Origin: a virus
Reading direction: 5' to 3' (one strand)
Virus record (IMG/VR): IMGVR_UViG_3300024180_000004
Span: 30,748-94,747 of that record
DNA length: 64,000 nucleotides
Part shown: one piece after another, positions 6,688 to 53,676 of the stretch
How positions within the stretch are numbered: position 1 is the stretch's first letter
Layout: each line of letters opens with the position of its first letter
Made by a program: the position numbers and the translations under genes
Notes under the pieces: model-generated
The model's input: the letters and a program-made list of their open reading frames with translations, nothing else
What the model was told of the DNA's origin: nothing
Databases searched by the model: none

Positions 6688-7257
6688 ATGAAACATATAA
6701 AACAATTTGCGGATTTCTCCGAAGGTTTAAAGTATCATTTGGTAAATTCTATGCCAATCACTGAAAATGTTTTTAGACCAGGTTCTAAACAATTCTTTTC
6801 TATATTGGAAGAAGCTAGAAATCTTTTTGATGAGGGTGCTTTAGTACTTGAAGGTATTGATAAAGAATTATACGAAAATACTGAGATTGGGTGCTTTGGT
6901 ACTTTTAATGGTGAAAGAGTCCCTTTAGATATTCCAATGGAAGTTGAGGAAGAATTGAATGAGGCTGAATATAAAGGTAAAGAAGTAGAACTTAATAAAC
7001 CTATGAGAAGTTCAGGTCCTAAGAAATATCAAGTTTATGTTAAAAATCCAAAAACTGGTAAAGTTAAAAAGATTTCTTTTGGTGATGTTAAGGGTGGATT
7101 GACAGCAAAGGTGAGTGATCCGGATGCTAGAAAGTCATTTGCCGCACGTCATAAATGCTCTACAAAAAAAGATAAGACTACCGCGGGCTACTGGGCGTGT
7201 CGTATAAATCGGTACGGTCACCTTTGGAATAATAAAACCTATCCAGGTTTCTGGTAA
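6688..7257 (+). CDS. DUF5872-type virion protein with capsid-targeting-like leader (189 aa)
   Basis: The N-terminus, MKHIKQFADFSEGL, matches the shared leader motif. The last 80 residues (about 110-189) form a compact domain with KKYQVYVKNPKTGKVKKI, then DPDARKSFAARHKC and YWACR. This DPxxRKSFAARHxC...YWxCR pattern is what I know from DUF5872 proteins of T4-like cyanophages and jumbo phages, often annotated as virion or prohead proteins. The middle is acidic. The gene follows the Cys-rich gene by one base. A head-internal or core role is inferred. Confidence 0.7.
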   Translation: MKHIKQFADFSEGLKYHLVNSMPITENVFRPGSKQFFSILEEARNLFDEGALVLEGIDKELYENTEIGCFGTFNGERVPLDIPMEVEEELNEAEYKGKEVELNKPMRSSGPKKYQVYVKNPKTGKVKKISFGDVKGGLTAKVSDPDARKSFAARHKCSTKKDKTTAGYWACRINRYGHLWNNKTYPGFW

Positions 7258-7301
7258 TCTAAGTGAGTTGGATTTCCTTTTCTATTTTTATATAAACATG
7301 T

Positions 7302-7562
7302 ATGAAACCATTTCAAGAAACAAAAATAAGTGATAATACATTCATCAGAGAGTTTAGTCAAAATACTGATTCTGGAGAAATGACTTGGCATCGTGATAGA
7401 GAAAATCGCGTAATAGAATGTATTGGAGATACTGATTGGATGATACAAATAGATAATGAACTTCCTAAGAAAATTGAAGGTGAGATACTTATACCGATGG
7501 GTATTTATCATAGACTTATAAAGGGTACTGGTGATTTGAAAATAAAATTATTAAAGTTATAA
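7302..7562 (+). CDS. Small cupin-like phage protein (86 aa)
   Basis: This 86-residue protein has the pattern MTWHRDRENRVIECI, WMIQIDNELP, then ILIPMGIYHRLIKGTGDLKI. It looks like a single small beta-barrel (cupin-type) with a conserved HR near the end. Short proteins of this kind are common and uncharacterised in T4-like phages of marine and freshwater bacteria. A TTTTTATATAAAC motif just upstream of the ATG resembles the local late promoters. Function unknown. Confidence 0.6.
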   Translation: MKPFQETKISDNTFIREFSQNTDSGEMTWHRDRENRVIECIGDTDWMIQIDNELPKKIEGEILIPMGIYHRLIKGTGDLKIKLLKL

Positions 7563-7717
7563 AATTGAAAAAGATTTTAAAGGAAAACTTAATGTTTTTA
7601 TTAATAATCTAGGAATTGAAGAGCGTGAAAGGTTTGGGTTAATATCAGATGAGGGTAGATCCTAAATTAAATTACGATTTATATATTGAAGACCGTTCAT
7701 AAGAGTGGCCTTTATAT

Positions 7718-7867
7718 TTATTTAGCATATCTTCTTTCGTATCCTTTAACTTTGTATTTATTTCGACCAATTGGATGTCCGCCTTTATTATAATTTTTAT
7801 AAACATAACTTCTACTGACACATCCGGTTAATGTTAAAATTAGTGTAATATATATTATTCTTTTCAT
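7718..7867 (-). CDS. Small lipoprotein (49 aa)
   Basis: MKRIIYITLILTLTGC is a clear lipoprotein signal peptide with lipobox LTGC (Cys16). A short basic, tyrosine-rich mature part follows and ends KGYERRYAK. The ATG overlaps the TAA of the 46-aa gene upstream (TAATG), suggesting translational coupling. Phage lipoproteins of this size can be outer-membrane spanins or superinfection-exclusion proteins; sequence alone does not decide. The predicted location is the periplasmic face of the outer membrane. Confidence 0.65.
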   Translation of the reverse strand: MKRIIYITLILTLTGCVSRSYVYKNYNKGGHPIGRNKYKVKGYERRYAK

Positions 7868-8007
7868 TAGTATCTATACTTATACAATATTTCGGTATGT
7901 ATATTTTGTGGTTTTTTTCTCGTATAGTAAGTAATACCAAATCTATTTCTGACTTTATACCACTTACCACCAATTATTTTCCTATATGATTTTATATATC
8001 TTAACAT
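7867..8007 (-). CDS. Small basic protein (46 aa), unknown
   Basis: The ATG directly abuts the TAA of the gp47 gene and the stop overlaps the start of the lipoprotein gene, so this short frame sits exactly inside a three-gene minus-strand operon. The product is strongly basic and aromatic (MLRYIKSYRKIIGGKWYKV...) with no membrane segment. The exact junctions are the main evidence that it is real. Confidence 0.5.
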   Translation of the reverse strand: MLRYIKSYRKIIGGKWYKVRNRFGITYYTRKKPQNIHTEILYKYRY

Positions 8008-9141: not shown

Positions 9142-9263
9142 GTGTAAGGGATAGATATTTTTTTAATTATAAATATATAATGTTATATTAAAAAATGAGA
9201 GATAGTTGTGAATTATGATATATATCTTTGAGTGATTGGTTTAGGATATTGAAAATGGAAAAA

Positions 9264-10003: not shown

Positions 10004-10022
10004 TATTGATATTAAAAATAAA

Positions 10023-10045
10023 AAACCCACTTTTGGTGGGTTTTT
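10023..10045. terminator. Bidirectional intrinsic terminator
   Basis: An AAACCCAC / GTGGGTTT stem with a five-base loop is followed by ten T on the plus strand and by an A-run reading as T on the minus strand. It separates the tail tube gene from the convergent 72-aa gene. Confidence 0.88.
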
Positions 10046-10053
10046 TTTTTATT

Positions 10054-10272: not shown

Positions 10273-10276
10273 TAAT

Positions 10277-15426: not shown

Positions 15427-15987
15427 CTATTTTTTTATATCATCTGTTATTTTTTTAGAAGAATCTACTAATTCCTTTTTTATATCATCCATTTTCTTCT
15501 TTAAATCACTTTCTGCAGTTGTTAAGTCTTTTTGTGTGTCAATTATTTCTTGGCCTTTCAACTTTTGTTTTGATTTTATGTCGTTTATAGTATTTGTCTT
15601 CGATTCTACGGAACTATCACTACTATTATCAGAGTTTAATAATTTTAAATCCTCTTGATTTTGATATAAATCATCATTGTACTTGACCAATTCATCTTGT
15701 ATCTTTTTTATTCTGCTCTGAAGACTCAAAACTTTTGTATATCCTTCGATAAAGGGGTTATTTGGAAATTTATCTCTTATCTCATTTATCTTATCCTTTA
15801 GTATAGTATCACCATCATCTGATTTTATATTTGTAAATGTACGATCCAGTTCGGCCTTTACTTTTGGATATTCCTTTATACTTTTCTCTAAATCATTTAA
15901 CTTTTCCTTAGCGAGCATTATCTCTGGTCTATCTGTTACCTCAACATTTATATTCTCAAAATGTTTGAATTTTTTTAAGTATTTCAT
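15427..15987 (-). CDS. Coiled-coil protein with capsid-targeting-like leader (186 aa)
   Basis: MKYLKKFKHFENINVEV matches the shared leader. The rest is almost entirely predicted helix with heptad-like spacing and high Lys/Asp/Glu content (RIKKIQDELVKYNDDLYQN...). It ends in a repeating DIKK pattern. It is encoded immediately downstream of the 1046-aa multi-motif protein (3 bases apart) and upstream of the sheath, on the same strand. Such proteins are typical of head core or internal proteins, but no homologue is recognised. Confidence 0.6.
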   Translation of the reverse strand: MKYLKKFKHFENINVEVTDRPEIMLAKEKLNDLEKSIKEYPKVKAELDRTFTNIKSDDGDTILKDKINEIRDKFPNNPFIEGYTKVLSLQSRIKKIQDELVKYNDDLYQNQEDLKLLNSDNSSDSSVESKTNTINDIKSKQKLKGQEIIDTQKDLTTAESDLKKKMDDIKKELVDSSKKITDDIKK

Positions 15988-15990
15988 AGT

Positions 15991-18900
15991 TTATTTAATA
16001 TTTGTATCTTTTATACCTTCGGTTGAACTTATATTTTCGAATCCACCATACTCTTTAATATTTTTTTCAGTTGAACTTTTGTCAATTTTAACCCTTTTAA
16101 AATCATCTTTAGTTGAACCTCTACTTAAATCTACTATGTGATTGGCCTTTATTATTTTCCAATTATTTTCTTTCTTAACAACTTTAGTTCCTTTATTGTC
16201 TGATTTCTTATCATCATTAACTCTCATAACACTATTTATAGTTATAGAGTTTGGGAGATTAAATTTACCATCTTTGTACAACTCTGTTGATTTTATACGT
16301 GTTGCCATAATTGGATAAATCTCACCATTTGGATCCTTCTCATTAAATTGATTAATTTCTTTGTTTAAATTAACCGTTGTTCTACTAAATTTTTGAAGAC
16401 TCTTTTTAAGATAAAATGCAGTTTCGGAATAGTTAATATATAAAAAGTTATCTTTTATTTCTTGTATTTGGAAATAAAATCTCTTTCCGTTACCACCATT
16501 CTCAGAAATAAGTAGTGAGAACCAAGTATACTCTAAAGAGTTCTCGTTTTTAATTTTTATACTTGTTTCTCTACCATCGACAAGACTTACTTCTACCGAT
16601 TTTATATTATTAGCAACTCCTGTTACAACACCACCGTCACCACCGTAATATAGATTACTATCATTCTTATCATCTTTATATCCAAAATATTTATCTAGGA
16701 ATTTAGCTTGTGCACCTTGTTCTTTACCTGAACCACCTTTGTATAGCTCATCACCATCCAACATATCAGTCATGAATTTTCTTAGGTTCATACCTGCCTT
16801 TTCTATATACTCATCTCCAACTTTTAATTTAGTACCGACATTGAATATTGCTTGATATTTTTTATCTTTTTTAACATCCAATACACAATTTTCCCATTGA
16901 TTAAAAATTGCATTATTTCTATATGGTCCACCACTTGCACCTGCGGTCTCTGGGGTACCACCTCCAAAACTATGATATTCTAAAAATGTTTTGTTAGATA
17001 CTTTACCACCAGATCTACCAGTTGGAATAACTTGTGTTGTGTGTAACTTATATGCTCTATTAAATACTTTCACAATCTCTAATATAGGATCCATACCATC
17101 TATTACAATAGAATCTTTTTTCTCTGCAAGTTTTTTATCTAAATTTACTCTTACTTTATCAACTTCAGTTTTTTCTAAAATCCATATTTTTAGATCCATT
17201 TTTTTATCCCACCAGTCTTGTATTTTGGTAACACTATTTGGATTTTTCCACTCACTTACTTCACTGTTATTGTCATTTGTAGTATCTTCCGTTGGATCTT
17301 CGGTATCTTCCGTTGGATCCGTAGTATCCTCTTCTTTCTTAAATCCAATTTTATTTTCGGTATAATCTGCCTCATTCATACTTAAAAAAGATTTATATCT
17401 AAGTAGAGTTTTAGACTCTTCTAAAACTTTCTCAACATCATCCATAGACTTTGTAAACTCTTTACCACTTTTATCTTTGAAGATGAGATTTCTACCATCA
17501 ATCCTTAATATTTCTTTAGTTATTTTCTTCCCGGTATCTCTACTATTCCAAGTAACCGTATCTCCTTCGTTCCATTTACTAGTCACTTCAAGAACATACT
17601 TCATGGATTCGTTGAATCCCTTTATATCATCCGTAAATACATCCCACGTCTCTCCCTTAACTTCAATTTTGTTTGTTTCATCAATATAAATAATGAAGCT
17701 ACCATCGGGCTTTTCTTTAGTCACCGTATATATGTCTGCTATATATTTACCTATTTCATTCGACTTTTCTAATATCGTATGTACATCTTCGTTTATTCCA
17801 TTTATAGATCTTATGTTTGTATATATTTTATCTATGCTTAATTTATACTTTTCATAACCGTCGTTTGTTGTTCTATCGTCAGAATTTAAAAACTTATGGA
17901 ATTCACCATCTTTTATCAATATGTTTGGTTCGCTTTTAAATGCTAAATACAATGGTTTTATTACATCCCATAGTTTTTTAGTATCTAAATCTAACTTACG
18001 CTCATCTTTCGAACTTGTGATGAATTTCCATATTTTACCAACAATTTTACCGATAGGTTTACCCACTTTAGATGTGTTTGTATCGTTAGTATCTTCATCT
18101 ATTTTTAGAAAATCATCATATTTCATTAATTTGGATTCAGTTTGAATTTGTTTCGGTGTTTTTTCTTTACTTTTGGCAACCGTAACATTTTCTTCACCTG
18201 GTAAAGGTTTTAGTTGATTTTTAGGAACGCTCATAGTTTTTTTATACATTCCTTTTACATCTTTAAATGCAACAAAAGCATGATCTCTCTTTATAACATC
18301 GGTTCCGATTATATCATCTTTTGTGAGAAATTCTTTATCTGGTCCAGCCTTTTTTGTTTTATCTAAAGAAATAATTTTAACAGGGTTTTCTTTACCACTT
18401 TTATTTGTAAATACATATTCTTTACCAATTTCAAACTCACCTTCTGTTGAAGATTGTTTATTTGTCTGTTGTGTTGGTGATTCTGTTGAATTTACTACAT
18501 TTTTTATTTCCTGTGTTATTCCTTGATAAGTCAATAAAATATCAAATAAATACTTAAAGTTTTCTAAATATGTTTCCGTTTCTGTTCTTTTTTCTTCATT
18601 TTTGTAATCATCATCTTCTGATTCACCCTCTTCAAATTGTTCTAAATATTTTTTCCATTCATTCAATTGTCTTAGTAGTTCATTTTTATCTTCTAAATCC
18701 TTATTCGAATTAACTTCTAAAATTGCAGATTCTGTTAGATTCAATAATTCAATCTTTGCTTCACCCTTTTCTACAGCATCTTGAAGAGCTATTAGATATG
18801 TTGATATTAAAGCCTTTGCATATAGTCTTTTATCATTTTCGTCCAACTCTGCAACTGATGAGGTTAATAAAATATCATCCATTGAATCTCTGAGTCTTTG

Positions 18901-19131
18901 TTCAACTGACTTTATTCTTAAAAGATTTGCACCTATTTTGGCTTTCCTTAATGTTGAATTTATTAATCTACCTAATAATGAATCACCCCAACCAACATTA
19001 TTGACAAAGGGACCACCTACTACATCTTCATTTATGGTTTTAATATTTTCGGAATTTGTATATTTATCTTTAATTTTTAAAATATTATTATAATTTTTTA
19101 AAAAATCTTCTCTTCTATTAATATATTTCAT
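15991..19131 (-). CDS. Large modular protein with three capsid-targeting-like motifs, possible internal polyprotein (1046 aa)
   Basis: No known enzyme domain is recognised. The leader MKYINRREDFLKNY recurs inside the protein as LMKYDDFLKIDED (residues about 335-347) and LLRYKSFLSMNE (about 576-587). Each internal copy is preceded by a short SH3/KOW-like beta segment: IGKEYVFTNKSGKENPVKII with NQLKPLP, and EGDTVTWNSRDTGKKITKEIL with MDDVEKVL. Acidic Thr/Asp/Pro linkers follow, including DPTEDTEDPTEDT near 610. This suggests a polyprotein of repeated modules, each ending near a glutamate that the gp21-type protease could cut. It is transcribed with the coiled-coil gene downstream. The C-terminal domain (about 640-1046) is unknown. 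Confidence 0.6.
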   Translation of the reverse strand: MKYINRREDFLKNYNNILKIKDKYTNSENIKTINEDVVGGPFVNNVGWGDSLLGRLINSTLRKAKIGANLLRIKSVEQRLRDSMDDILLTSSVAELDENDKRLYAKALISTYLIALQDAVEKGEAKIELLNLTESAILEVNSNKDLEDKNELLRQLNEWKKYLEQFEEGESEDDDYKNEEKRTETETYLENFKYLFDILLTYQGITQEIKNVVNSTESPTQQTNKQSSTEGEFEIGKEYVFTNKSGKENPVKIISLDKTKKAGPDKEFLTKDDIIGTDVIKRDHAFVAFKDVKGMYKKTMSVPKNQLKPLPGEENVTVAKSKEKTPKQIQTESKLMKYDDFLKIDEDTNDTNTSKVGKPIGKIVGKIWKFITSSKDERKLDLDTKKLWDVIKPLYLAFKSEPNILIKDGEFHKFLNSDDRTTNDGYEKYKLSIDKIYTNIRSINGINEDVHTILEKSNEIGKYIADIYTVTKEKPDGSFIIYIDETNKIEVKGETWDVFTDDIKGFNESMKYVLEVTSKWNEGDTVTWNSRDTGKKITKEILRIDGRNLIFKDKSGKEFTKSMDDVEKVLEESKTLLRYKSFLSMNEADYTENKIGFKKEEDTTDPTEDTEDPTEDTTNDNNSEVSEWKNPNSVTKIQDWWDKKMDLKIWILEKTEVDKVRVNLDKKLAEKKDSIVIDGMDPILEIVKVFNRAYKLHTTQVIPTGRSGGKVSNKTFLEYHSFGGGTPETAGASGGPYRNNAIFNQWENCVLDVKKDKKYQAIFNVGTKLKVGDEYIEKAGMNLRKFMTDMLDGDELYKGGSGKEQGAQAKFLDKYFGYKDDKNDSNLYYGGDGGVVTGVANNIKSVEVSLVDGRETSIKIKNENSLEYTWFSLLISENGGNGKRFYFQIQEIKDNFLYINYSETAFYLKKSLQKFSRTTVNLNKEINQFNEKDPNGEIYPIMATRIKSTELYKDGKFNLPNSITINSVMRVNDDKKSDNKGTKVVKKENNWKIIKANHIVDLSRGSTKDDFKRVKIDKSSTEKNIKEYGGFENISSTEGIKDTNIK

Positions 19132-20571: not shown

Positions 20572-20811
20572 ATGGATAATAAATTGGCGGTTTGTAGTAG
20601 TCCTTGGTGTAAGGCAACATTTTCTTATACTGATAGTGATATGGTTGGTAATGAAGATGTTAAATCACCACCTAAAAATTGTCCAAAATGTATAAGTTTT
20701 GATAATGAACTTAGTGGTGGTGTTACTTGGCTCGATAAAGAATATGAGGGTAGTAGATTTGATGTTATGCCACATGAAATAAAATATAAAGTAACAAATT
20801 TTAGACTATGA
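20572..20811 (+). CDS. Small putative zinc-ribbon protein (79 aa)
   Basis: Cysteines are spaced as a ribbon: CSSPWC near residues 8-13 and CPKC near 37-40. Between them lies TFSYTDSDMVGNEDVKSPPKN. A four-Cys zinc ribbon is likely; the role is unknown. The stop overlaps the start of the next gene (ATGA), so the two are translationally coupled. Confidence 0.6.
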   Translation: MDNKLAVCSSPWCKATFSYTDSDMVGNEDVKSPPKNCPKCISFDNELSGGVTWLDKEYEGSRFDVMPHEIKYKVTNFRL

Positions 20812-21653
20812 ATGCACATTTTTTTGACATAGAGACTATCTTGGTCATGGATAGCAAGGTTTGGTTGGTTGATAAGAATAGTCCAAATTTTCCAGTATTC
20901 AAAATTAGCAATTCTGACTTTAACCTTATAAGAAGTGGAATATACAAAAGTAAAAAAAATTCTATATATTTTGGTGGATCATCTTATTGGTTACCGGATG
21001 ATTTAATGAATAGTATTAAAATAAAGTGTAAAAATCTTAATATAGATATAACAGATCTAACATTTTCTATGCAGGAATTTATGAATTCTGATATAATAGA
21101 AACACTTGATTATGATATTAATATAGATAACTTAATACACTTAAAAAATAAAAATGATGATATCTATTTTATTTGCTCTAAAAACAATAAAAAAAATTAT
21201 GATAAAATAATTAAGAAGATTGAGAATAAGTTAGAGGAAGTTGGTCTTTTTATTAAAAAATATTATTTTATATCAGATACATTTTACAATAGAGACTTAG
21301 ATGATATATCACATAAAAAGATTAGGTTATTATTACAACATTCAATTGGAATGAAAACAGATGGTGATAAATTTGTTGACGATGAACTTCAAAGTTATGA
21401 TGATATTTACTTCTATGATGATGATCAAAATACAATAAGTCTTGGTATAAAATGTAATAACCTTTTACAACTTATTATTGATAATAGTGATTCTGATATA
21501 AAATCCGAGATAATTGATTTATTAAAATCTGAGAATAAAAATATTTATTTTAATTTTGTTAGTACTAACAAGGTTAAAAGATTTTCAACTACCAAGGTTG
21601 TAATAAAATATAACATGATAAAGACTTTTGAGAATTTTAATTGGAAGAAATAG
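20808..21653 (+). CDS. HAD-like phosphatase-fold protein (281 aa)
   Basis: Motif order suggests a HAD-type Rossmannoid fold: MNAHFFDIETIL at the start (motif I position), DDIYFICSKN near residue 118 (motif II), KKIRLLLQHSIG near 175, and DDIYFYDDDQNTI near 205 (motif IV acidic cluster). Motif I has DIE where active phosphatases have DxD, so catalysis is uncertain. The C-terminus ends IKTFENFNWKK, a copy of the FExF motif otherwise found at N-termini in this window. It is coupled to the zinc-ribbon gene and convergent with the terminase-neighbour gene. Confidence 0.55.
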   Translation: MNAHFFDIETILVMDSKVWLVDKNSPNFPVFKISNSDFNLIRSGIYKSKKNSIYFGGSSYWLPDDLMNSIKIKCKNLNIDITDLTFSMQEFMNSDIIETLDYDINIDNLIHLKNKNDDIYFICSKNNKKNYDKIIKKIENKLEEVGLFIKKYYFISDTFYNRDLDDISHKKIRLLLQHSIGMKTDGDKFVDDELQSYDDIYFYDDDQNTISLGIKCNNLLQLIIDNSDSDIKSEIIDLLKSENKNIYFNFVSTNKVKRFSTTKVVIKYNMIKTFENFNWKK

Positions 21654-26450: not shown

Positions 26451-27023
26451 ATGAAACATATCAGACAATTTGAAAGTTTTAGAGTTCAAAAGAATAGAGA
26501 AGAGATAATTAAAGAATCTGTTCTACAAGTGAACGATTTATATAAGGTTAAAACAATGATTGATATTCCACAATCATTAATAAATTCTTATGTTAAGAAA
26601 GTAAAAGAAACGACAGGTAAAAATCTTCGTCAATTTTTCGGTGATGTTGATATTGCAGAAGAGATTGTTAAATATATCACATTGAATAATACTGATATTG
26701 ATAAAATACCGGGTAATGCTCTAATGGGTGGTGCACAAGGTCAATCACAGGCTCAAGGTCAGGGTCAAGTTCAGATACAAACTGAAGTTCAACCACAGGC
26801 ACAGACTCAAGGTCAAGAAGAAGTTCAACCACAAGGTCAAGAAGAAGTTCAACCACAAGGTCAAGAAGAAGTTCAACCACAAGGTCAAGAAGAAGTTCAA
26901 CCACAAGGTCAAGAAGAAGTTCAACCACAAGGTCAAGAAGAAGTTCAACCACAAGGTGATTTCGAAGAGCCACAGGCACAGACTCAAGGTCAAGAAGAAG
27001 ATGAAGAAGAGCTTCCACTTTAA
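26451..27023 (+). CDS. Protein with capsid-targeting-like leader and Gln-rich octapeptide repeats (190 aa)
   Basis: MKHIRQFESFRVQKN matches the shared leader almost exactly as in the DUF5872 protein. Residues about 15-95 are a helical domain (LINSYVKKVKETTGKNLRQF). The rest is low complexity: AQGQ runs, then six copies of QGQEEVQP, then an acidic end. The repeat is encoded by perfect 24-bp units. It is preceded by CTTAATATATAAC and followed by a strong terminator. An internal virion protein is inferred. Confidence 0.65.
   Translation: MKHIRQFESFRVQKNREEIIKESVLQVNDLYKVKTMIDIPQSLINSYVKKVKETTGKNLRQFFGDVDIAEEIVKYITLNNTDIDKIPGNALMGGAQGQSQAQGQGQVQIQTEVQPQAQTQGQEEVQPQGQEEVQPQGQEEVQPQGQEEVQPQGQEEVQPQGQEEVQPQGDFEEPQAQTQGQEEDEEELPL
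26808..26951 (+). repeat. Six tandem 24-bp coding repeats
   Basis: The unit starting CAAGGTCAAGAAG and ending TTCAACCA is repeated six times with perfect identity, adding eight residues (QGQEEVQP) per copy. The perfect DNA identity suggests recent expansion by slippage or recombination. Confidence 0.95.
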
Positions 27024-27079: not shown

Positions 27080-27235
27080 ATGAAAAATTTAAAACTATTT
27101 GAAAACTTTATTAGTGATAAGTTAATAGAGGATAAAATAAAGGATACTTGGAAAGTAGACCCTTATGAGTTTAAAGATTATATCTTATCCTCTATGGATC
27201 ATGGTGGTTTATATGGTGGTTATGAAGATATTTGA
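27080..27235 (+). CDS. Small protein with capsid-targeting-like leader (51 aa)
   Basis: MKNLKLFENFISDKL is one of the cleanest copies of the shared leader. The remainder is a short helical segment (LIEDKIKDTWKVDPYEFKD) and a glycine-rich tail ending YGGYEDI. A terminator lies just upstream with its own promoter-like motif, so it starts a unit with the hydrolase gene 33 bases downstream. Confidence 0.55.
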   Translation: MKNLKLFENFISDKLIEDKIKDTWKVDPYEFKDYILSSMDHGGLYGGYEDI

Positions 27236-40200: not shown

Positions 40201-42297
40201 ATGAAACCAGTTCTAATTGTAGAAAATTCAACGAACTCTCTTATAAGAGAAAGTTCAAGTACTGGTAAGAAGGATTATATTTTAGGTGGTACATTTACTG
40301 AGTTCGGTGTTAAAAACCGTAACGAAAGAATCTATACTGCTCCTAAATTCCTTCCTGCTTTAGAGGAGATGAATGAAAGAATGAACAATTTAGGAATTGT
40401 CTATGGTGAATTTGATCACCCGGATGTTTTCGATACTTCACTTTCAAGAGCTTCTCACGTAATTACAAAGGCTAATTATGTAAAAGAATCAAACTTAGTA
40501 GAAGGTGAAATCAGATTATTAAGCACTTATTGGGGAAAAGAGGCAAAATCGTTAGTTGACGATGGTTGTCCTATTTTCGTTTCATCAAGAGCTGCAGGTA
40601 TTACTGAATCTGACGGAACCGTATCATTAAAAAAACTATTCACTTATGACATTGTTGCTGATCCAGGATTTGCATCAGCTAAGATGAGTGTAAAGGTTCT
40701 TAATGAGTCACTTGGTTATGACAACCCAAAATCCAACTTTAGGATATATGATTTATCCAACGAGTCAAAAACAGAAGAGTTATTTAACATGAACAACAAC
40801 GAATTTGTTACTAAACAACAATTAACTGATTACTCTCAGTATTTAGTTAAAGAGTTGGCGTCAACTAAGAAAGAAGTTAAGAACGCCATTACTAAAGGTA
40901 ATATTGAACCTAAAAAACTTGAGCAATTACTTGAGTATTATGATGAATTGAACAACACTAATTCACAAGTAGCTAAATATTTAGACTACTTAGCTGAGAA
41001 AGTTCAAATTATGGTTAATGAGAATCAATCATTAAAAGAAACTACAGATAAACTAATCAAACATAATGATTATTTGGCTGAAAATCTAGAAAAGGCAGTA
41101 AATTATTCTGAATATGTTGCTGAAAATTTAGATAAGAACATTGCATATTCTGAATATGTTGCTGAAAATTTAGATAAGAACATTGCATATTCTGAATATG
41201 TTGCTGAAAATTTAGATAAGAACATTTCTTATACAGAATATGTTGCTGAAAATTTAGATAAAAACATCGCTTACTCTGAATACATTGCTGAAAATTTAGA
41301 TAAAAACATCGCTTACTCTGAATACATCGCGGAAAACTTAGATAAAAACATCGCTTATGGTGAGTATATCGCTGAACATGTTGATAATTCTATCGCTTAT
41401 TCAGAATATTTGGCAGAACATGTTGAAGGTAATATTGCTTACTCTGAATACATTGCTGAAAATTTAGATGATAATATTGCATATGGTGAGTATATCGCTG
41501 AAAATTTAGATAAATCTATTAACTACCAAGGATTAATAGTTGAGAAGTTAAATGGTGGTAAATTAAACGAATCGGAAGGGGCATTCCCAACTTTAAATAC
41601 TGTTGGTTTTGAGACTATCGTTGAAGAAAACGAAGTTGAAGAAAACGAAGTTGAAGAAAACGAAGTTGAAGAAAACGAAGAAAATGGTATTGCAGAAATT
41701 GCACCCGAAAATGTACATGCATACGAAGAAGAAAAAGAAGAAGAATGTGCTACTGATTATAAAGTTAACGGTAACTCTGATTCTGAATTATCTGAATCTA
41801 TTGATAAATTAATTGAAGAAGCTAAAAAACGTAAAGTTTCTGAAACATCAGATTTGAATTTCTTGAAATTCTTATCTAAGTCACAAGTTGATAGCTATTA
41901 TGCTTTAACAAATGAAGAACAAGATAGTGTTAAACTACACATAAACGAAAGTAGTTACTTCACACAAAAAGAAGTATTGTCTTTGATCTCTGAAGCATTA
42001 TCAACTAAAAACGAAACTCTTGAAGAAAGAGTAATCAGATTAATGCCTGATAACACAAAGGCTATCTGGAACCAATTGAACGAATCGGCTAAAAAATCTA
42101 TCATTTCACAAGCTAGATTATACCCAGCTGAGGTACTTCAAACTGAAGGTCAAGTTGAACACTTTTGGACAACAAGAAACCTTAAAACAAATGAATCAGT
42201 ATCCAAAAAACTTGTTTCACATGAAGCTCTTATCCAAGAAGATAAGTTGTCTGATAATGATGTAACAGCAATTATGGAAAGATTCAAAAACATTTAA
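40201..42297 (+). CDS. 21: Prohead protease (gp21-like) fused to a repeat-rich scaffold-like region (698 aa)
   Basis: The N-terminal 190 residues are a gp21-family serine protease. GGTFTEFGVKNRNERIYTA is followed by the catalytic His in YGEFDHPD (H73) and the catalytic Ser in CPIFVSSRAAG (about 128), and DIVADPGFASAKM ends the fold. T4 gp21 is about 212 aa. The remaining 500 residues are helical and scaffold-like (gp22 role): coiled coil, ten copies of a 14-residue repeat (YSEYVAENLDKNIA), an acidic VEENE repeat, and a conserved-looking C-terminal helical domain. In T4 these are separate genes. It lies directly before the capsid gene. The ATG at 40201 follows the A-rich leader. Confidence 0.85.
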   Translation: MKPVLIVENSTNSLIRESSSTGKKDYILGGTFTEFGVKNRNERIYTAPKFLPALEEMNERMNNLGIVYGEFDHPDVFDTSLSRASHVITKANYVKESNLVEGEIRLLSTYWGKEAKSLVDDGCPIFVSSRAAGITESDGTVSLKKLFTYDIVADPGFASAKMSVKVLNESLGYDNPKSNFRIYDLSNESKTEELFNMNNNEFVTKQQLTDYSQYLVKELASTKKEVKNAITKGNIEPKKLEQLLEYYDELNNTNSQVAKYLDYLAEKVQIMVNENQSLKETTDKLIKHNDYLAENLEKAVNYSEYVAENLDKNIAYSEYVAENLDKNIAYSEYVAENLDKNISYTEYVAENLDKNIAYSEYIAENLDKNIAYSEYIAENLDKNIAYGEYIAEHVDNSIAYSEYLAEHVEGNIAYSEYIAENLDDNIAYGEYIAENLDKSINYQGLIVEKLNGGKLNESEGAFPTLNTVGFETIVEENEVEENEVEENEVEENEENGIAEIAPENVHAYEEEKEEECATDYKVNGNSDSELSESIDKLIEEAKKRKVSETSDLNFLKFLSKSQVDSYYALTNEEQDSVKLHINESSYFTQKEVLSLISEALSTKNETLEERVIRLMPDNTKAIWNQLNESAKKSIISQARLYPAEVLQTEGQVEHFWTTRNLKTNESVSKKLVSHEALIQEDKLSDNDVTAIMERFKNI
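41104..41523 (+). repeat. Ten tandem 42-bp repeats in the scaffold region
   Basis: The 42-bp unit TATTCTGAATATGTTGCTG...ATTGCA is repeated about ten times, with early copies identical and later ones diverged (EYLAEHVE, EYIAENLDD). It encodes a 14-residue helical period, consistent with an extended rod. Confidence 0.9.
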
Positions 42298-42384: not shown

Positions 42385-44088
42385 ATGTCACACATTAGAA
42401 TAGACAACGCGAAAGCAACTAAGAAATGGGCTCCAGTTTTAGAAAACATGGGAGTAACAGGTGATAGAGTTGAATGGATGTCGGAGTACGCTGAATTTCA
42501 CTCAATCAATGAAAATGCATATGTAAACGCATCTAACGTTGCGGGTATGGGAGGTGTATTTGCACCACAACCAGCTGCTTATGCAGGTAACACAATCGGT
42601 GGTAACTATGCAGCAACAACTGCAGGTGGAACAATTGGTTCAGGAGACGTAGGTCAAAACTTATTACCAGTAGCTATGAAAATTGCTGCTCAAACAATCG
42701 GTTTGGATTTAGTAGCTGTTAAACCAACTCCGGGTCCAAAAATCGATTTACTTTATATTGATTTCCAATATGATGATACTAGATTAGGTGATTCTGACGA
42801 AAGACCACAAGTTTTCAAATTAAATACTACTAACAATTCTGATCTTGTTGCTGCAATCCAAACTGGTGCTGGTTCAACAATTGTAAATACACAAGGTGGT
42901 TTAGCAAATGGAAGATTCTTCTATTCAATCAACGCAACAGGTACTGCTTCTTTAGGTGCTACTGTATCAACTACTGAACCTGCAAGTAAAGAAGGTGTTG
43001 TTGAGTTTTTAGGATTCTCTAGAATCGATGGTTTCCCAATGTTCAGAGCATTTAGACAAACAAATACTGCACATACTGGTGTTAATCAATTCACAACTGC
43101 TTGGGGATTTGATGTAACAAGAAACACTTTCGCACCAACTGCATCAATGGTTTCTCAAATCGATCAAATCGCGGGAGTTACACCAACAGGAACAACAATT
43201 GAATTAATCTCTGCATTAGAAGATCATATCCCAGGTTTCTCTACAAACTTTGGTGGTGTTCCTTCAGGTTCTGCACAAGGGTCTTACCCAATGTCAAGAG
43301 AAGAAGATGATAACAGTTATGCTGGTGTTATCGGACCAAAAATTTCTTCTAAAACTATCGCAGTTGGTACTATTGAAGTAACTTCAGCTTTAAGAAGAAC
43401 AGAAATCGAAGATATCAAAGCTAACACAGGTATGGATATCGTTCAAAAAATGGAATCTATCCTTGTTAATGAGTTGTCTCAAACAATCTCTAAACAAATC
43501 GTTGCTAAAATCTTCGAAATGGGTTCTTTAAATAGAGCAAGTGCTCCTATCAAATCTGGTTCAGATACTATTTTTGATTTAAATACAAACTATGCTGCAA
43601 CTGGAGTTGTAGGTGGTGAAACTACTCACGCGGTACAAAGAAAATTGATCACGAAAATTGCTCACGCTTCTAACTATATCGCAACAGAAGGTCGTGTTGG
43701 TCCTGCTCAATACCTTATCACAAATGGAGGTTTAGCTGCGGCATTACAAGATATCGCTGGTTACACAATCAACCCTGTTAAATCTAAATTAAACGGACAA
43801 GGTCAATTATACCCTGTAGGTTCTATCGGAGATATCGCTATCTATGTTGATCCTTACATGAAATATAATGACAACAGAATCGTTTTAGGTAGAAAAAATA
43901 ACCCAGATCAACCAGGTATTATTTTCGTACCTTACTTGATGGCACAATCTATCTCAGTTATTTCTGAAGCGACTTTCGCACCAAGAATGTTACTAAGATC
44001 TAGATATGCGGTTGCTGAAGTTGGATGGTTCCCACAAAAACAATTTATGACTATTCAAGTTACTGATACTGAACAATTATTGAACTAA
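42385..44088 (+). CDS. 23: Major capsid protein, gp23-like (567 aa)
   Basis: This HK97-fold capsid protein is of T4 type. It has N-terminal propeptide-like MSHIRIDNAKATKKWAPVLE, then the segment LLPVAMKIAAQTIGLDLVAV with KPTPGPKIDLLYIDFQYDD. The spine/P-domain follows (IEVTSALRRTEIEDIKANTG ... QTISKQIVAKI), then the conserved end IYVDPYMKYNDNRIVLGRK and SEATFAPRMLLRSRYAVAEV with GWFPQKQFMTI. T4 gp23 is 521 aa and is cleaved after a glutamate by gp21; an FHSINE site near residue 43 is a candidate. Codon use is strongly biased, as for a very abundant protein. Confidence 0.95.
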   Translation: MSHIRIDNAKATKKWAPVLENMGVTGDRVEWMSEYAEFHSINENAYVNASNVAGMGGVFAPQPAAYAGNTIGGNYAATTAGGTIGSGDVGQNLLPVAMKIAAQTIGLDLVAVKPTPGPKIDLLYIDFQYDDTRLGDSDERPQVFKLNTTNNSDLVAAIQTGAGSTIVNTQGGLANGRFFYSINATGTASLGATVSTTEPASKEGVVEFLGFSRIDGFPMFRAFRQTNTAHTGVNQFTTAWGFDVTRNTFAPTASMVSQIDQIAGVTPTGTTIELISALEDHIPGFSTNFGGVPSGSAQGSYPMSREEDDNSYAGVIGPKISSKTIAVGTIEVTSALRRTEIEDIKANTGMDIVQKMESILVNELSQTISKQIVAKIFEMGSLNRASAPIKSGSDTIFDLNTNYAATGVVGGETTHAVQRKLITKIAHASNYIATEGRVGPAQYLITNGGLAAALQDIAGYTINPVKSKLNGQGQLYPVGSIGDIAIYVDPYMKYNDNRIVLGRKNNPDQPGIIFVPYLMAQSISVISEATFAPRMLLRSRYAVAEVGWFPQKQFMTIQVTDTEQLLN

Positions 44089-44176: not shown

Positions 44177-45010
44177 ATGAAAAATATAATCACATTTAAA
44201 AAATATTTTGAAAGTAAAAATAAAGTAAATGAAGGTTCTGTTGAATTGTTTATGGCAGGTGTTACTTTATTAGGATTGACTAATTTAGGCTATTGGGCCA
44301 CCGAAAATATAAAATATTGGACATCTAAACATGGAAGATATTTCAAAGCTTTAGAAAAAGATAAAGAATTCTTTAAACAATTTGTAGAATTACTTACTAC
44401 TTATGGTAAAGGAGATCCTACACAAGCATTTAGATATATCTTTAGAGGTTTAGGTTTTGAAAAAAAGAAATTTATAGATGAAATTTTTGAATTACCTAGA
44501 GCACTTGAGATAAGAGAAAAATTAGGTATTAGTGACGATCCAGATTCAACAATGTGGAAAGTAAAATATGATTTTAATGATGCACTTATAAATGGATATG
44601 TTGAACGATTCATAGTTAAAAAACTGAAAAGTATCAAGAGAGACATAAATGAGTCTAAAAATAAGTTTCCTGATGTTAAGAAGATGGATATAGATGGTTT
44701 TATAGTTTATATCGGTAAAGATGCAAAATCTAATGATTACTTAACATTTAATATGGCTGATGATGAGGATATATGGATGCATGCAAAGGGTGTTCCAGGT
44801 AGCCATGTTGTTATCAGAGTTATGGATAATCTACCAACAGAAACAACAATTAAAAAGGTTGCAGAACTTGCAAAAAAGAATAGTAAGGCAAAAAGGGAAA
44901 CTAATGTACCGGTAGTATATTGTCAGAGAAAGTTTGTTAAGAAAGAACCTGGTATGAATGATGGTCAGGTAAAAGTTGACTATATAAATTCAAATGATAT
45001 TAATATATAA
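44177..45010 (+). CDS. NFACT-R (DUF814) domain protein with capsid-targeting-like leader (277 aa)
   Basis: MKNIITFKKYFESKNKVNEG matches the shared leader. A short hydrophobic segment (SVELFMAGVTLLGLTNLGYW) and a helical middle follow. Residues about 172-268 are an NFACT-R domain: DGFIVYIGKDAKSNDYLTF, then the hallmark DIWMHAKGVPGSHVVIRV (198-215), ELAKKNSKAKRETNVPVVYC and KFVKKEPGMNDGQV. In RqcH/Rqc2 this domain helps bind tRNA-Ala and the obstructed large ribosomal subunit during C-terminal Ala-tailing; the NFACT-N and HhH domains are absent here. It leads a short operon with a peptidase, followed by a tmRNA. A role at stalled ribosomes is inferred. Confidence 0.8.
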   Translation: MKNIITFKKYFESKNKVNEGSVELFMAGVTLLGLTNLGYWATENIKYWTSKHGRYFKALEKDKEFFKQFVELLTTYGKGDPTQAFRYIFRGLGFEKKKFIDEIFELPRALEIREKLGISDDPDSTMWKVKYDFNDALINGYVERFIVKKLKSIKRDINESKNKFPDVKKMDIDGFIVYIGKDAKSNDYLTFNMADDEDIWMHAKGVPGSHVVIRVMDNLPTETTIKKVAELAKKNSKAKRETNVPVVYCQRKFVKKEPGMNDGQVKVDYINSNDINI

Positions 45011-46382: not shown

Positions 46383-46793
46383 ATGATAAAGAGATATAAC
46401 AACTATATTAAAGAGGATAAATACGAAGATGAATTCTTTGACGATTATGGTTCACAAGATGAATATGAGGGTCAAGATGACGCACAAGGTGATGATGATA
46501 TGGAACACCTTCTTTACCTTTTGAGGGCTTTCTTAAAGGATGCTGGTATTAAAAATGTGAGTTTGAAAAATACAAATTCTAGTATACAATTAGAAATAAT
46601 TACTAAAAGAAAAGAATCTATAACAGAAGTTATAAGAATTTTTGAAGTTTTGAAAAAATTATCTAATGATATAATGGGTGATTATGATTGTGAGTTTGAT
46701 ATTTGGGAAACAAATAAGGGTAATCCATTATTGATAATTGACTTCTACTTACCAGGTGATTATAATTATGAAGATGATGATATGCCATTTTAA
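46383..46793 (+). CDS. Acidic protein with loose leader motif (136 aa)
   Basis: MIKRYNNYIKEDKYEDEFFDD is a loose variant of the shared leader followed by an acidic stretch. A compact alpha/beta domain starts at about residue 40 (MEHLLYLLRAFLKDAGIKNV, LEIITKRKESITEVIRIFEV) and ends LLIIDFYLPGDYNYEDDDMPF-like in acid. No family recognised. It follows the peptidase by one base and precedes the tmRNA by 73 bases. Confidence 0.55.
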   Translation: MIKRYNNYIKEDKYEDEFFDDYGSQDEYEGQDDAQGDDDMEHLLYLLRAFLKDAGIKNVSLKNTNSSIQLEIITKRKESITEVIRIFEVLKKLSNDIMGDYDCEFDIWETNKGNPLLIIDFYLPGDYNYEDDDMPF

Positions 46794-48520: not shown

Positions 48521-48991
48521 TTATTTTAGATATTTTATTGTATAATAACTATGTTTGTCTTCTTTATATAATTCTCTCCTTTTTAACCAAGAATCTATAT
48601 TGTTCAATCCCTTTAGATGTTGACCAAATATAAAATCATAACCATTATCTTTGGCATAATTTTCAAACCAATCTTTCAACTTATCACCCAATCCATTACC
48701 TCTATACTCTTTTTTAAGACCAAGTGCGACTCCTTCTAATCCACTTTTATCTTTTATTTTCTTGTGTGATAATAGATAGAACCCAATAATATCACCATTA
48801 TTGGTTAATTTACATGATATATCAAAATCGACAATAGACCTAATATAATCTTGGTTGTCATCATATGACATCAAATTAGAAAAAATATGTGATGCCATAT
48901 CAACAACCACATCTATATCCTCAATTTTAATCTTCTGAATTTTAATATCACCAATTTTAAAAGATTCATTATATTTTCTCAAATATTTCAT
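48521..48991 (-). CDS. GNAT acetyltransferase with capsid-targeting-like leader (156 aa)
   Basis: MKYLRKYNESFKIGD matches the shared leader. The GNAT core follows: IKIQKIKIEDIDVVVDMAS, the strand IIGFYLLSHKKI, then motif A with the acetyl-CoA loop GVALGLKKEYRGNGLGDKL (RGNGLG at 97-102) and motif B with YAKDNGYDFIFGQHLKG. It should transfer an acetyl group from acetyl-CoA to an amine; the target is unknown. It has its own TTTTTATATATAGAAAATG leader. If packaged in the virion, it could modify a host target right after injection, as T4 Alt does by ADP-ribosylation. Confidence 0.8.
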   Translation of the reverse strand: MKYLRKYNESFKIGDIKIQKIKIEDIDVVVDMASHIFSNLMSYDDNQDYIRSIVDFDISCKLTNNGDIIGFYLLSHKKIKDKSGLEGVALGLKKEYRGNGLGDKLKDWFENYAKDNGYDFIFGQHLKGLNNIDSWLKRRELYKEDKHSYYTIKYLK

Positions 48992-51607: not shown

Positions 51608-51608
51608 A

Positions 51609-51640
51609 CAAAAAGAGAGTCAAATGACTCTCTTTTTTAT
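51609..51640. terminator. Bidirectional intrinsic terminator
   Basis: An AAAAGAGAGTC / GACTCTCTTTTT stem with an AAAT loop lies between convergent genes. An almost identical terminator occurs at 57630. Confidence 0.88.
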
Positions 51641-52209
51641 TTTTTTAACCAATCTATAAAACTCATTTCCAAATCATAGAATTCCATTTCAAATCTATAT
51701 TTTTCATAAACTTTTAAACAAATTTCCTTTTCTTTCCTTGTAATTTCTTCAGAATCATTATCTCTATCATAGAATCTCGAGTTCGTACCAAAATGTGGGT
51801 AATGACCTTCGTTTTTTATTTCAGTGTTTTTAGGAACTAACTTTTTTAAATCCTTACTCATTTGTTTATCAACAGATTTACAATAATCGTTATCATTTTC
51901 CATCATCCAATTATGAAGTTTTAAAAAGTCTTTTTGTGATAGATTTTCACCATCTAATTTAAGTTTGATTAGTTTAGATATATCACCAGATATACCTTCA
52001 TTAGTTTCTTCTAATGATTTTAAATCATCAACTACTTCATCCTTTGTAACTGTAGTTATTTTACGTGTCGTTTCATCAAACTCATTTCTTGTATTAGTTG
52101 TATATTGTTGTTGATCAGAATTAGGTTTAAAAGATCTTTTAATCTTTTGAAGTCTTTCTTTTTCAACTTCGATGTTGAAATCTTCGAATCCTTTTACTTT
52201 TTTTGACAT
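51637..52209 (-). CDS. Hypothetical protein with FEDF motif near N-terminus (190 aa)
   Basis: MSKKVKGFEDFNIEVEKERL carries a variant of the shared FExF motif five residues in. The rest is charged and helical with Lys/Asp-rich segments and ends MEFYDLEMSFIDWLKK. No domain recognised. It is the last gene of a minus-strand set with the two genes upstream (one base apart). Possible virion-internal protein. Confidence 0.5.
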   Translation of the reverse strand: MSKKVKGFEDFNIEVEKERLQKIKRSFKPNSDQQQYTTNTRNEFDETTRKITTVTKDEVVDDLKSLEETNEGISGDISKLIKLKLDGENLSQKDFLKLHNWMMENDNDYCKSVDKQMSKDLKKLVPKNTEIKNEGHYPHFGTNSRFYDRDNDSEEITRKEKEICLKVYEKYRFEMEFYDLEMSFIDWLKK

Positions 52210-52210
52210 A

Positions 52211-52906
52211 TTATTTATTTTTTAGTTTTTTATCCAATAGTTTAGCTATATTAGATCCTATGAAGTAATGTAAGTTCTTAAGAGTATCTGCTTCTACCGT
52301 TTCAATCTCATCCATAAATCTAAACTGATATTTATAAGTATCTTTATCATCTTTATCATCGGCATCGATTTTAGAAATAGATAATTCCATATGATAGTTA
52401 TCATTTATATTTATTTTAAAATCAAATGTAGTTTTATCACAAGGTGTTGTTTTAAACTTAGGTTCATACTCTACATCAAATATAGAATATTCAGTTATCT
52501 TAGCTCTTTTCATGTAATAATTTAAGAACATAGCAGGTGCCTCAATAAAATCCGAAAGTATTTGTAAGTCTTCACCAAAATCTTTAGATTCGATAACATC
52601 TTCAATTTTCTTTTTTAAGTCGATTATTGTAGAGAACTCTATTTTGTGATATACACAATTTATATCATATAAATATATAAATGAGTTATCAATTATATGT
52701 CTTTTATTTAGATCGGTTTTAAATATGAATTTTGTATGTATTATTGAAGTATCTTCGGTTGTTAGGCCATGAATAGATATTATAAGTTTCAAGAAATCTT
52801 CATCATTTGACATTTCATAAACCGTTTCAACCGTGTTTACCATTCCCTTTTCTTCCTGAAATATATCTCTAAATACTTCTTCTATTTCTGATATTTTAAT
52901 ATCCAT
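52211..52906 (-). CDS. Hypothetical protein (231 aa)
   Basis: Alpha/beta protein starting MDIKISEIEEVFRDIFQEEK, with strands of the form LKLIISIHGLTTEDTSIIHTK, shown here in part as LIISIHGLTTED, and FDFKININDNYHMELSISK. No motif recognised. It overlaps the nucleotidyltransferase stop by one base and is followed within one base by the FEDF protein, so the three are an operon. Confidence 0.5.
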   Translation of the reverse strand: MDIKISEIEEVFRDIFQEEKGMVNTVETVYEMSNDEDFLKLIISIHGLTTEDTSIIHTKFIFKTDLNKRHIIDNSFIYLYDINCVYHKIEFSTIIDLKKKIEDVIESKDFGEDLQILSDFIEAPAMFLNYYMKRAKITEYSIFDVEYEPKFKTTPCDKTTFDFKININDNYHMELSISKIDADDKDDKDTYKYQFRFMDEIETVEADTLKNLHYFIGSNIAKLLDKKLKNK

Positions 52907-53676
52907 TATTTATTATTTATTTTAGTATTTGATTCAAATTGTTTATCATAAGACTTACGTTTTAATTTCATTATCTTTTCGATATATCCATTACGACGCA
53001 AAAGCTTAAATACAAGATTACCTAATGAAAGTTCACCACCTTCTTCTGCCAATCCACTTTTTCTATATTTTTTAACTTTATCCCAAGCTTTATTCAATTT
53101 CTCATTGAATTTTTCATATTTATCCTCATCAACTTCATCCTCAATTTCATCAACCATCATCATTACAGACTTCGATTTTTCTCTTAAAGATTCTTCATCT
53201 GGTTCGAATTCAACTTTCTTTGGTTTAACATTCCACTTATTTTCCAATAATGAAAATACACCGCTTGATTTATGTGGTTCATCTACATCTTGTATATAAA
53301 CTTCAACTTCATATCCTTTTATTTTGATATCATGTCCGTCATTCCAGTTTTTCTTTGCAGAATCCACAAACTTTTTAACTAATTCAACATTATCATCAAT
53401 ATCTTTGAAATCAATAAGAATATGTAAGTCATAGTCTGAGTACTTTTCGGACCAGTTATAATTAGATAACGATCCAGTTAAAATAATATCTTTAACTTCT
53501 GCTTCAAGATCCGTAGATTTATAAAAGTCTTCTGCAATTTGTAGCAGTTGTCTTCTAACCTCTGAATCTAATTCAAAGTCCTCCCATAGTTTAGGGTTTA
53601 ACTCATCTTTTATATAAAAAGATTTTATCGGTTCAAAATCATCCTGAACGAATTCGTAAAATTTATTAAGTTTCAT
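52906..53676 (-). CDS. Nucleotidyltransferase (Pol beta/MNT-like) with capsid-targeting-like leader (256 aa)
   Basis: MKLNKFYEFVQDDFE is a variant of the shared leader. The catalytic core is DIILTGSLSNYNWSEKYSDYDLHILIDF, given here as GSLSNYNWSEKYSDYDLHI: GS at 68-69 and the DxD pair at D81/D83. The third acidic position is in VEVYIQD near 125. The helical C-terminal half is charged. This is the minimal nucleotidyltransferase fold used by antitoxins, tRNA-modifying enzymes and CD-NTases; the product is unknown. TTTTTTAATATATACTTTATG leads into the gene. Confidence 0.75.
   Translation of the reverse strand: MKLNKFYEFVQDDFEPIKSFYIKDELNPKLWEDFELDSEVRRQLLQIAEDFYKSTDLEAEVKDIILTGSLSNYNWSEKYSDYDLHILIDFKDIDDNVELVKKFVDSAKKNWNDGHDIKIKGYEVEVYIQDVDEPHKSSGVFSLLENKWNVKPKKVEFEPDEESLREKSKSVMMMVDEIEDEVDEDKYEKFNEKLNKAWDKVKKYRKSGLAEEGGELSLGNLVFKLLRRNGYIEKIMKLKRKSYDKQFESNTKINNK

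Follow-up and report, generated by a model that had tools for sequence, protein, structure and literature searches.

This study focused on a short peptide shared by the N-termini of otherwise unrelated proteins encoded in a 64,000-nucleotide stretch of viral DNA (the window), which comprises positions 30,748 to 94,747 of the 94,747-bp IMG/VR virus record IMGVR_UViG_3300024180_000004 (the whole record is referred to as G000). With a probability of about three in four, these peptides (tags) represent an expanded capsid-targeting system of the T4 type, and in the closest huge phage such tags would be carried by well over a hundred proteins. A tag of the form h-x-x-[FY]-x-x-[FY] would bind the internal core while the prohead forms, its partner in the core being most likely a long helical scaffold with the same signature in its repeats. 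A gp21-type protease, predicted to lie in one chain with the scaffold, would then cut both the scaffold repeats and the tags behind Glu (L/I-x-E), and the mature cargo, freed inside the head, would exit together with the DNA when the phage infects.

The head genes of the window are a T4-type set, comprising portal, head maturation protease, major head protein and terminase, and a tail sheath gene is also present. By capsid protein, the nearest named phage records are those of two uncultured phages (634,780 and 642,428 bp, 74% identity), followed by uncultured phages of 636,363, 735,411 and 462,018 bp (52.6%, 51.7% and 35.3% identity, respectively), and then by Tenacibaculum phage PTm1, Prevotella phage Lak and Sphingomonas phage PAU. 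By this protein, LR745206 is the closest named relative of the record. The uncultured relatives are presumably among the 'huge phages' of Al-Shayeb and colleagues.

A shared peptide restricted to N-termini

Ten starts of this kind had been listed by the first-pass annotation, and all proved to be ATG starts of open reading frames at the places and on the strands it gave. Eight of them match a core pattern, [ILVMFY]xx[FY]xx[FYH] starting at residue 2-5, which contains no Glu; MKYINRREDF (19131, minus strand) and MKYLRKYNESF (48991, minus strand) lie outside it and score 6.4 and 11.2 with a matrix that was learned without labels on LR745206, G000 serving as a held-out record. One of the ten examples, MKLNKFYEFV (53676, minus strand), is weak, as its N-terminus aligns with homologues as part of the whole protein. 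Three further starts were missing from that list: 46383 (MIKRYNNYIKE), 52209 on the minus strand (MSKKVKGFEDF) and 56919 (MEKDVFKFDDF).

Core matches were counted with a simple gene caller, internal methionines and shuffled N-termini serving as controls. In G000 the core was found in 21/115 genes (12 of the 71 window genes, the remaining nine matches lying left of the window), compared with 4/502 internal methionines and a mean of 3.8 (maximum 10) among shuffled N-termini. The corresponding values for LR745206 were 110/950 genes, 46/3188 internal methionines and a shuffled mean of 17.5 (maximum 31), with matches peaking at residue 4 (62 observed, 3.4 expected). Matrix scores above 6 were obtained for 134/931 N-termini of LR745206 (2.9 expected from internal methionines) and 13/109 of the held-out G000 (0.4 expected), and across 78 IMG/VR loci around homologous capsid genes the matrix flagged 129/1638 genes (4.1 expected), distributed over 66 of the loci. 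High-scoring windows inside proteins numbered 6 in LR745206 (7 in shuffles) and 3 in G000 (0 in shuffles). Enrichment of the motif at position 1, which the first-pass annotation had named as one way to check its claim, was found in both genomes, with internal methionines far lower.

The loose core also catches other kinds of start. An open reading frame at 9188-9343 matches it but was judged by eye to be a hydrophobic false positive, and MKEHIFVYGLF, MISVFMYHDI and MTLYVFLTHQ are native N-termini, probably those of the GGACT, polysaccharide deacetylase and galactosyltransferase matches. All four false positives remain in the core counts and in the counts of tag forms and of core-defined sites given below, and these three families were excluded from the cargo described below.

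That the proteins behind the shared start are unrelated was also borne out. When 107 LR745206 proteins taken as tagged (core or T4 pattern, at least 60 aa) were compared by BLAST with their first 14 residues removed, the bodies were mostly unrelated: at E 1e-3 they fell, with other LR745206 proteins, into ten clusters, of which the largest had eight members (three untagged). What these otherwise unrelated proteins have in common is a short N-terminal peptide and, judged by these counts, the tag is real, N-terminal and a feature of the peptide.

Resemblance to the T4 capsid-targeting sequence

In T4, the internal proteins IPI, IPII and IPIII carry a capsid-targeting sequence (CTS; Mullaney and Black 1996, as cited in PMC9026906; statements cited by PMC number, here and below, are drawn from the relevant passages of those papers). 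IPIII residues 4 and 7 are the main determinants of targeting and residues 8 and 10 those of processing, with gp21 cleaving after L/I-X-E, and the suggestion has been made that uptake of various proteins by T4-like phages may proceed through the CTS (PMC9026906). The T4 record gives MKTYQEFIAEASVV for IPIII and MKTFKEFTSTTTPVSTITEATL for IPI, and the IPIII start that the first-pass annotation had given was correct (the record reads MKTYQEFIAEA).

Like the CTS, the tags occupy the N-terminal 10-19 residues of different small proteins and have aromatic residues three apart. The T4 spacing, [YF]xx[FY][IVL]xE at residue 3-8, occurs in 20 genes of LR745206 (1.85 expected) and 3 of G000 (0.59 expected), while the form [YF]x[ILV][FY]E[SAND] occurs in 18 genes of LR745206 (0.20 expected) and in 2 of G000, with no internal copy. 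Recurrent forms include MKYLKxYKLFE/S, MIKKYNQFIKE/S and MKYLKxFNE/S, where, here and below, a slash marks the proposed cut. Cleavage would be a further likeness, gp21 cutting after L/I-x-E in T4, with the corresponding sites here known from sequence only. The differences are that T4 has three internal proteins plus Alt whereas a single huge phage genome has well over a hundred such starts, that several tag forms occur here, and that protease and repeats are here joined in one protein.

Head protease, scaffold repeats and capsid protein

The relevant head genes of the window are as follows.

40201-42297, plus strand: head maturation protease and probable scaffold in one protein (phrog_207, E 3.8e-30, match at residues 2-268)
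41104-41502, plus strand: ten copies of [YF]xx[FY][IVL]xE with a 14-residue period, e.g., YSEYIAE (residues 302-434 of the same protein)
42385-44088, plus strand: major capsid protein, untagged (phrog_138)
35546-37276, plus strand: portal protein, untagged control (phrog_213)

The gp21-like protease that had been proposed at 40201 is confirmed by its match to the head maturation protease family phrog_207, and the protein shares 35% identity over 141 aa with a PTm1 protein annotated as 'prohead core scaffolding protein and protease'. Pfam, run on the window, gave protease matches below threshold only, and no sequence match among solved structures was found at 0.01. The repeats behind the protease are of the YSEYIAEN type (an example unit is YSEYIAENLDKNIA), and an eleventh copy, YLDYLAE, lies at residue 260. 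Across 82 near-full homologues the median is 11 copies of [YF]xx[FY][IVL]xE (range 0-14; shuffles 0.13), tandem copies not being independent events. An AlphaFold2 model predicts residues 237-451 as one helix, mostly with a pLDDT of about 60-78, within a model that is poor overall (mean pLDDT 58, pTM 0.25). The place of the repeat part, the repeats themselves and the PTm1 annotation all suggest that it is a scaffold.

Copies of [ILVFM]xE[SAN] are more numerous in the protease-scaffold protein than in any other protein of G000 (25 copies), LR745206 (23) and six of seven other relatives (LR756501, 18; LR756504, 19; LR756500, 13; PTm1, 17; pT24, 23; MA9V-1, 20), the exception being PAU; among proteins of at least 200 aa they are also densest there in both G000 and LR745206. 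In the T4 stretch the highest count belongs to the scaffold gp22 (10 copies), a known gp21 substrate (PMC9026906).

The capsid, portal, terminase and sheath proteins of the window are untagged. A candidate cleavage site in the capsid protein, SINE/N at residues 40-43 (42502-42513), has its E in 84/87 aligned rows; the E of the T4 row in that column is not the known T4 site, and in the MAFFT alignment the T4 gp23 site did not fall together with the SINE of the window's clade. The portal protein has a low-complexity repeat, GGDFGGGAQ, at its C-terminus.

Candidate cleavage sites behind the tags

The cleaner test for sites used LR745206 genes defined by the core alone, with no Glu in the tag definition (105 tagged, 771 untagged). 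Within residues 9-30, [ILV]xE[SNADE] was present in 52/105 tagged and 78/771 untagged proteins and [ILV]xE in 67/105 and 255/771, compared with 45/105 and 261/771 when Asp replaced Glu and 30/105 and 310/771 when Lys did so. At residues 61-82, [ILV]xE[SNADE] was found in 10/105 tagged and 91/771 untagged proteins. The site Glu peaks at residue 11 (residue 10 in T4), Ser occupies P1' in 32/99 sites, and the fraction of Glu directly followed by Ser is 0.18 behind tags and 0.08 in untagged proteins. A count based on matrix-defined tags gave 73/132 tagged and 38/489 untagged proteins (Asp control 11/132 and 51/489) and is partly circular, since the matrix favours E. In G000, [ILV][NKFRT]E was seen in 8/18 tagged and 12/86 untagged proteins. 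These patterns support a Glu-Ser site at a fixed place behind the tags of LR745206, and support a strict L/I-x-E rule only in part.

Tagged proteins, tag exchange and cargo

The tagged and possibly tagged proteins of the window are given below with their matrix scores.

6688-7257, plus strand: tagged protein, MKHIKQFADFSEG...MPITE/NVF; matrix 7.5
15427-15987, minus strand: tagged protein, MKYLKKFKHFE/N; matrix 8.3; LR745206 homologue (28% identity) MKYLKKYKIFLE
15991-19131, minus strand: tagged 1046-aa protein, MKYINRREDFL...TINE/DVV; matrix 6.4; homologue MKYLSKRSEYL...VINE/SVS
26451-27023, plus strand: tagged protein, MKHIRQFESFR...IIKE/SVL; matrix 10.0
27080-27235, plus strand: tagged 51-aa open reading frame, MKNLKLFENF; matrix 8.9
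27269-27919, plus strand: tagged protein, MRYLKTFESH before LIVVDVQ; matrix 8.9
32848-33507, plus strand: tagged adenylate/guanylate cyclase-family protein, MRWINDFRVFE/S; PF00211, 8.8e-22; matrix 3.8
44177-45010, plus strand: tagged NFACT-R protein adjoining the capsid gene, MKNIITFKKYFE/S; PF05670, 5.9e-16; matrix 5.2
46383-46793, plus strand: tagged protein with T4-type spacing, MIKRYNNYIKE/D; matrix 4.3
48521-48991, minus strand: tagged GNAT acetyltransferase-like protein, MKYLRKYNES; PF00583, 1e-4; matrix 11.2
51637-52209, minus strand: probable variant tag, MSKKVKGFEDFN; matrix 4.8
52906-53676, minus strand: the weak case, MKLNKFYEFVQ; matrix 4.3
56919-57626, plus strand: possible variant tag, MEKDVFKFDDFI; fits the core, not listed above matrix score 3

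Some of these proteins have features of their own. The 15991-19131 protein contains internal tag-like segments, SKLMKYDDFLKIDE/D and SKTLLRYKSFLSMNE/A, and its LR745206 homologue has ILKTFESFVSVILESE at residue 372, so that the product is possibly a multi-tag polyprotein. The protein at 26451-27023 has a low-complexity repeat, QPQGQEEV. No Pfam family was matched by the 27269-27919 protein in the scan of the window. The cyclase at 32848-33507 matches PADLOC models of Pycsar cyclases (best E 1.6e-7), a match that the general cyclase domain may explain.

Tags are exchanged in front of conserved bodies. A homologue of the 6688 protein at locus L060 has a different tag, MIHKFNQYKEISEN, yet keeps PITE/NVF; homologues of the 27269 protein carry MKYIRTYESY and MKHIKIFEDF ahead of the same body; and the LR745206 homologue of the cyclase starts MQHLDKYKYFQINE/A. 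The NFACT-R protein has 47 distinct homologues: [ILVMF]xx[FY] lies in residues 2-11 of 43, and the domain is preceded by 32 different leaders that end in E, one of which is an over-long start call. The same short motif is present in 41/42 distinct homologues of the 46383 protein, compared with 6/66 for the portal protein and 10/53 for the 45026 protein (which we take to be peptidase-like), the two neighbours that served as controls. For the weak case at 53676, it was found in 14 of 21 distinct homologues, some of them truncated, two of the 14 also having a nearby E site. In the NFACT-R homologue at locus L036, whose leader is MNFSLFNES, leader and domain are preceded in frame by a further 100 aa of coding sequence, as the result of a fusion or of an artefactual upstream start.

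Codon use in the tags is close to that of the genome for Lys, Phe and Glu, and Leu and Ile codons lean to TTA and ATA (0.67 vs 0.51 and 0.62 vs 0.52, respectively). Because codon choice is near that of the genome and many leaders stand before one domain, selection appears to act on the tags as peptides rather than to reflect a copied stretch of DNA. Many tags before one domain, and one tag pattern before unrelated bodies, also provide a natural proxy, though no more than that, for whether a tag would package a foreign protein.

Family scans covered 102 of the 107 tagged LR745206 proteins (one crossing a piece border and four hydrophobic or native-looking starts were left out), 54 of the 126 matrix-only proteins and, as an untagged sample, 103 of 135 proteins drawn at random from 293 low-scoring ones (three core-pattern proteins and the tail of the list were left out). 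The PHROGs comparison covered 53 of the tagged proteins and the 103 untagged ones. Few tagged proteins matched families (12 families among 49, 9 among 53 and 7 among 54), compared with 81 Pfam families in the untagged sample, a contrast that is descriptive, with two proteins (L088:37326 and L085:24666) sitting in both sets. Families found behind tags include Nudix (2), SMODS-associated Nudix, tRNA nucleotidyltransferase/poly(A) polymerase, T4-type RNA ligase, a 2'-5' RNA ligase-family domain (Acb1-like, below the Pfam cut-off) fused to a DEDD exonuclease, DHH and Toprim (both below cut-off), a GH108 domain, NFACT-R and cyclase, together with GNAT in the window. Among the 25 untagged families listed were tRNA synthetases, ribonucleotide reductase, dihydrofolate reductase, methyltransferases and sugar epimerases, and PHROGs matched DNA polymerases in the untagged sample.

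Phage PAU and other known systems

Phage PAU, the host of which is a Sphingobacterium (PMC3738902), has a related capsid protein and a shared start of its own, MK[TS][IL]xxLYE, found in 17/199 genes over 150 kb and at 0/912 internal methionines. Its carriers include gp142, gp154 and gp199, three of the four genes noted as 'internal capsid protein' (gp70 being the fourth), and gp152, noted as 'scaffolding', the one candidate site of which lies inside the tag. Beside the capsid gene lies gp155 (L098:23798-24544), an acidic, untagged protein of 248 aa. Its 11 L-x-E-[SAN] sites all have Leu at the second position before Glu and are of the same type as the L-[YF]-E-[AS] held by the PAU tag (LYEA, LFES). 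By sequence gp155, rather than gp152, looks like the scaffold, and PAU would support the cutting of tags more than a tagged scaffold. It differs from the window in its tag letters (MKTLxxLYEA) and in having a probable scaffold that is separate from the protease and without YSEYIAE repeats.

Two other systems offer parallels. An N-terminal signal within the first 30 residues of P1 DarB directs this large defence protein into the head and is functional when attached to a reporter (PMC9024508). By that paper's description, it resembles the proposed role of the tags in being an N-terminal packaging signal and differs in that BLAST gave no consensus among Dar N-termini, compared with one shared pattern here. 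In phages SPN3US and of the phiKZ type, N-terminal propeptides of head proteins are removed behind Glu, and a CTS-like role has been proposed for them (PMC5694885); the candidate Glu sites behind the tags would be their counterpart. Several SPN3US propeptides exceed 100 residues (PMC5694885) and they lack one shared short motif, whereas the candidate sites here peak at residue 11. A search of the open-licence literature, with most subscription journals and all bioRxiv preprints outside its scope, returned no paper on a shared tag in huge phages, and such tags go unmentioned in the relevant passages of PMC7824862 and PMC13282480.

Weighing of the evidence and alternative explanations

The first-pass annotation had proposed that the tagged proteins are packaged in the prohead, trimmed by the protease at 40201 and injected. 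Targeting to the prohead is supported by the T4 spacing in a subset of tags, the phrog_207 protease, the repeats and the PAU tag; packaging, binding to the scaffold and ejection would go with it. Trimming has less firm support: gp21-type sites are enriched behind the tags of LR745206, in part because Glu itself is enriched there, and no preference for a hydrophobic residue two before Glu was seen in G000.

A number of results weigh against a T4-type targeting system with cleavage. Concerning the sites in LR745206, the reversed control Ex[ILV] is raised as well (56/105 tagged, 239/771 untagged), the Glu fraction of residues 9-30 is 0.104 in tagged and 0.072 in untagged proteins and, given a Glu, the preference for I/L/V two residues before it is modest (0.35 tagged, 0.27 untagged) and is accompanied by a similar one two residues after it (0.32 and 0.26). 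In G000, the effect for [ILV]xE[SNADE] is weak (6/18 tagged, 17/86 untagged) and I/L/V two before Glu shows no preference (0.20 tagged, 0.24 untagged). Some tags, such as MRYLKTFESH, have no L/I-x-E nearby. Among the several tag forms, only one has the exact T4 spacing and the others differ, and a search with the T4 IPIII leader gave the scaffold repeat protein as the best match in both proteomes, with shuffled proteomes reaching the same scores. A matrix threshold of 4 is passed by 218/931 N-termini of LR745206 (12.4 expected) and 23/109 of G000 (1.1 expected) and admits signal-peptide-like starts and the LR745206 terminase (identified by position and sequence), so that the count at 6 is preferred. 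The PAU pattern was written after its starts had been seen and, since gp155 is untagged and full of sites, PAU does not show a tagged scaffold. Finally, in 50-kb stretches scored for spread, no start exceeded a matrix score of 6 in pT24, MA9V-1, S-H9-2, PAU or T4, and few did so in PTm1 (1/63), LR756501 (4), LR756504 (2) and LR756500 (2). Judged by these stretches, the expanded use of tags seems to be a feature of the clade that contains the window and LR745206; a Lak-A1 stretch (1/65 tag-like start, standard code, coding density 0.64) was not relied on.

The strongest competing explanation, although an unlikely one, is that the peptide is a docking or localisation motif for another phage structure or a host factor (replication compartment, membrane or ribosome). 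This would fit the shortness and basic character of the tag, a cargo (RNA repair, nucleotide hydrolases) with possible uses throughout the cell and the modest directional component of the cleavage signal; virion membership of the tagged proteins is a prediction from sequence. Docking of this kind would leave unexplained the T4-type spacing, the same signature repeated behind the head protease, the Glu-Ser sites behind LR745206 tags and the PAU tag on internal capsid genes. Less likely still, the tagged proteins could be mainly accessory proteins of the core or scaffold that are digested during head maturation and not delivered, in the manner of the T4 core proteins gp22 and gp67, which are cut to fragments (PMC9026906); the internal tag-like segments of some tagged proteins would fit this, but several bodies are enzymes, most are unrelated to each other, and no excess of sites is seen downstream at residues 61-82. 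It is very improbable that the shared starts owe their spread to a copied 5' module of promoter and first codons and have no targeting role: an [AT]ATATATA box within 30 bases upstream of the start, perhaps marking a shared promoter class, is commoner in tagged LR745206 genes (54/132) than in untagged ones (51/489), and the lean to TTA/ATA codons would agree, whereas the Lys, Phe and Glu codons follow genome usage and the leaders before the NFACT-R domain, 32 in number, are conserved in pattern only.

A bolder version of the T4-type targeting system, which is offered tentatively, holds that the tag imitates the scaffold of the phage itself and thereby serves as a general address system for loading a hundred or more proteins. 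Any protein gaining a short scaffold-like leader would be incorporated into the prohead and later released by the protease. As YSEYIAEN-type units share their aromatic spacing and Glu site with the T4 targeting peptide, a scaffold-like leader might suffice, and T4 could be a further case of such mimicry, its scaffold gp22 starting MLKEQLIAEA and IPIII MKTYQEFIAEA. The RNA-repair and nucleotide-signal enzymes among the cargo may then counter host defences before phage genes are expressed.

Implications

If an expanded T4-type targeting system is correct, the proteins that a huge phage carries into its host could be read from sequence without isolating the phage, and the largest phages would arrive with a large protein cargo rather than with DNA alone. 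The SMODS-associated Nudix hydrolase, the 2'-5' RNA ligase-family/exonuclease fusion, the RNA ligase, the tRNA nucleotidyltransferase and the nucleotide cyclase would be candidates for instant counter-defence. It would also identify the scaffold as the binding partner of a capsid-targeting tag and supply interchangeable tags with which proteins could be packaged in phage heads.

Other features of the window

Tag-like segments were also seen in proteins outside the set listed above. A 153-aa protein (6225-6686, plus strand) has three of them, MEKFLKE near its start, IKKFEDFKISISVDE inside and VVRFEDFLKSIM at its C-terminus, together with Cys-rich stretches, and the protein at 20808-21653 (plus strand) has a tag-like end, MIKTFENFNWKK. 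A fibre-like protein (53707-56379, minus strand) contains the low-complexity repeat GTSGIDGTSG.

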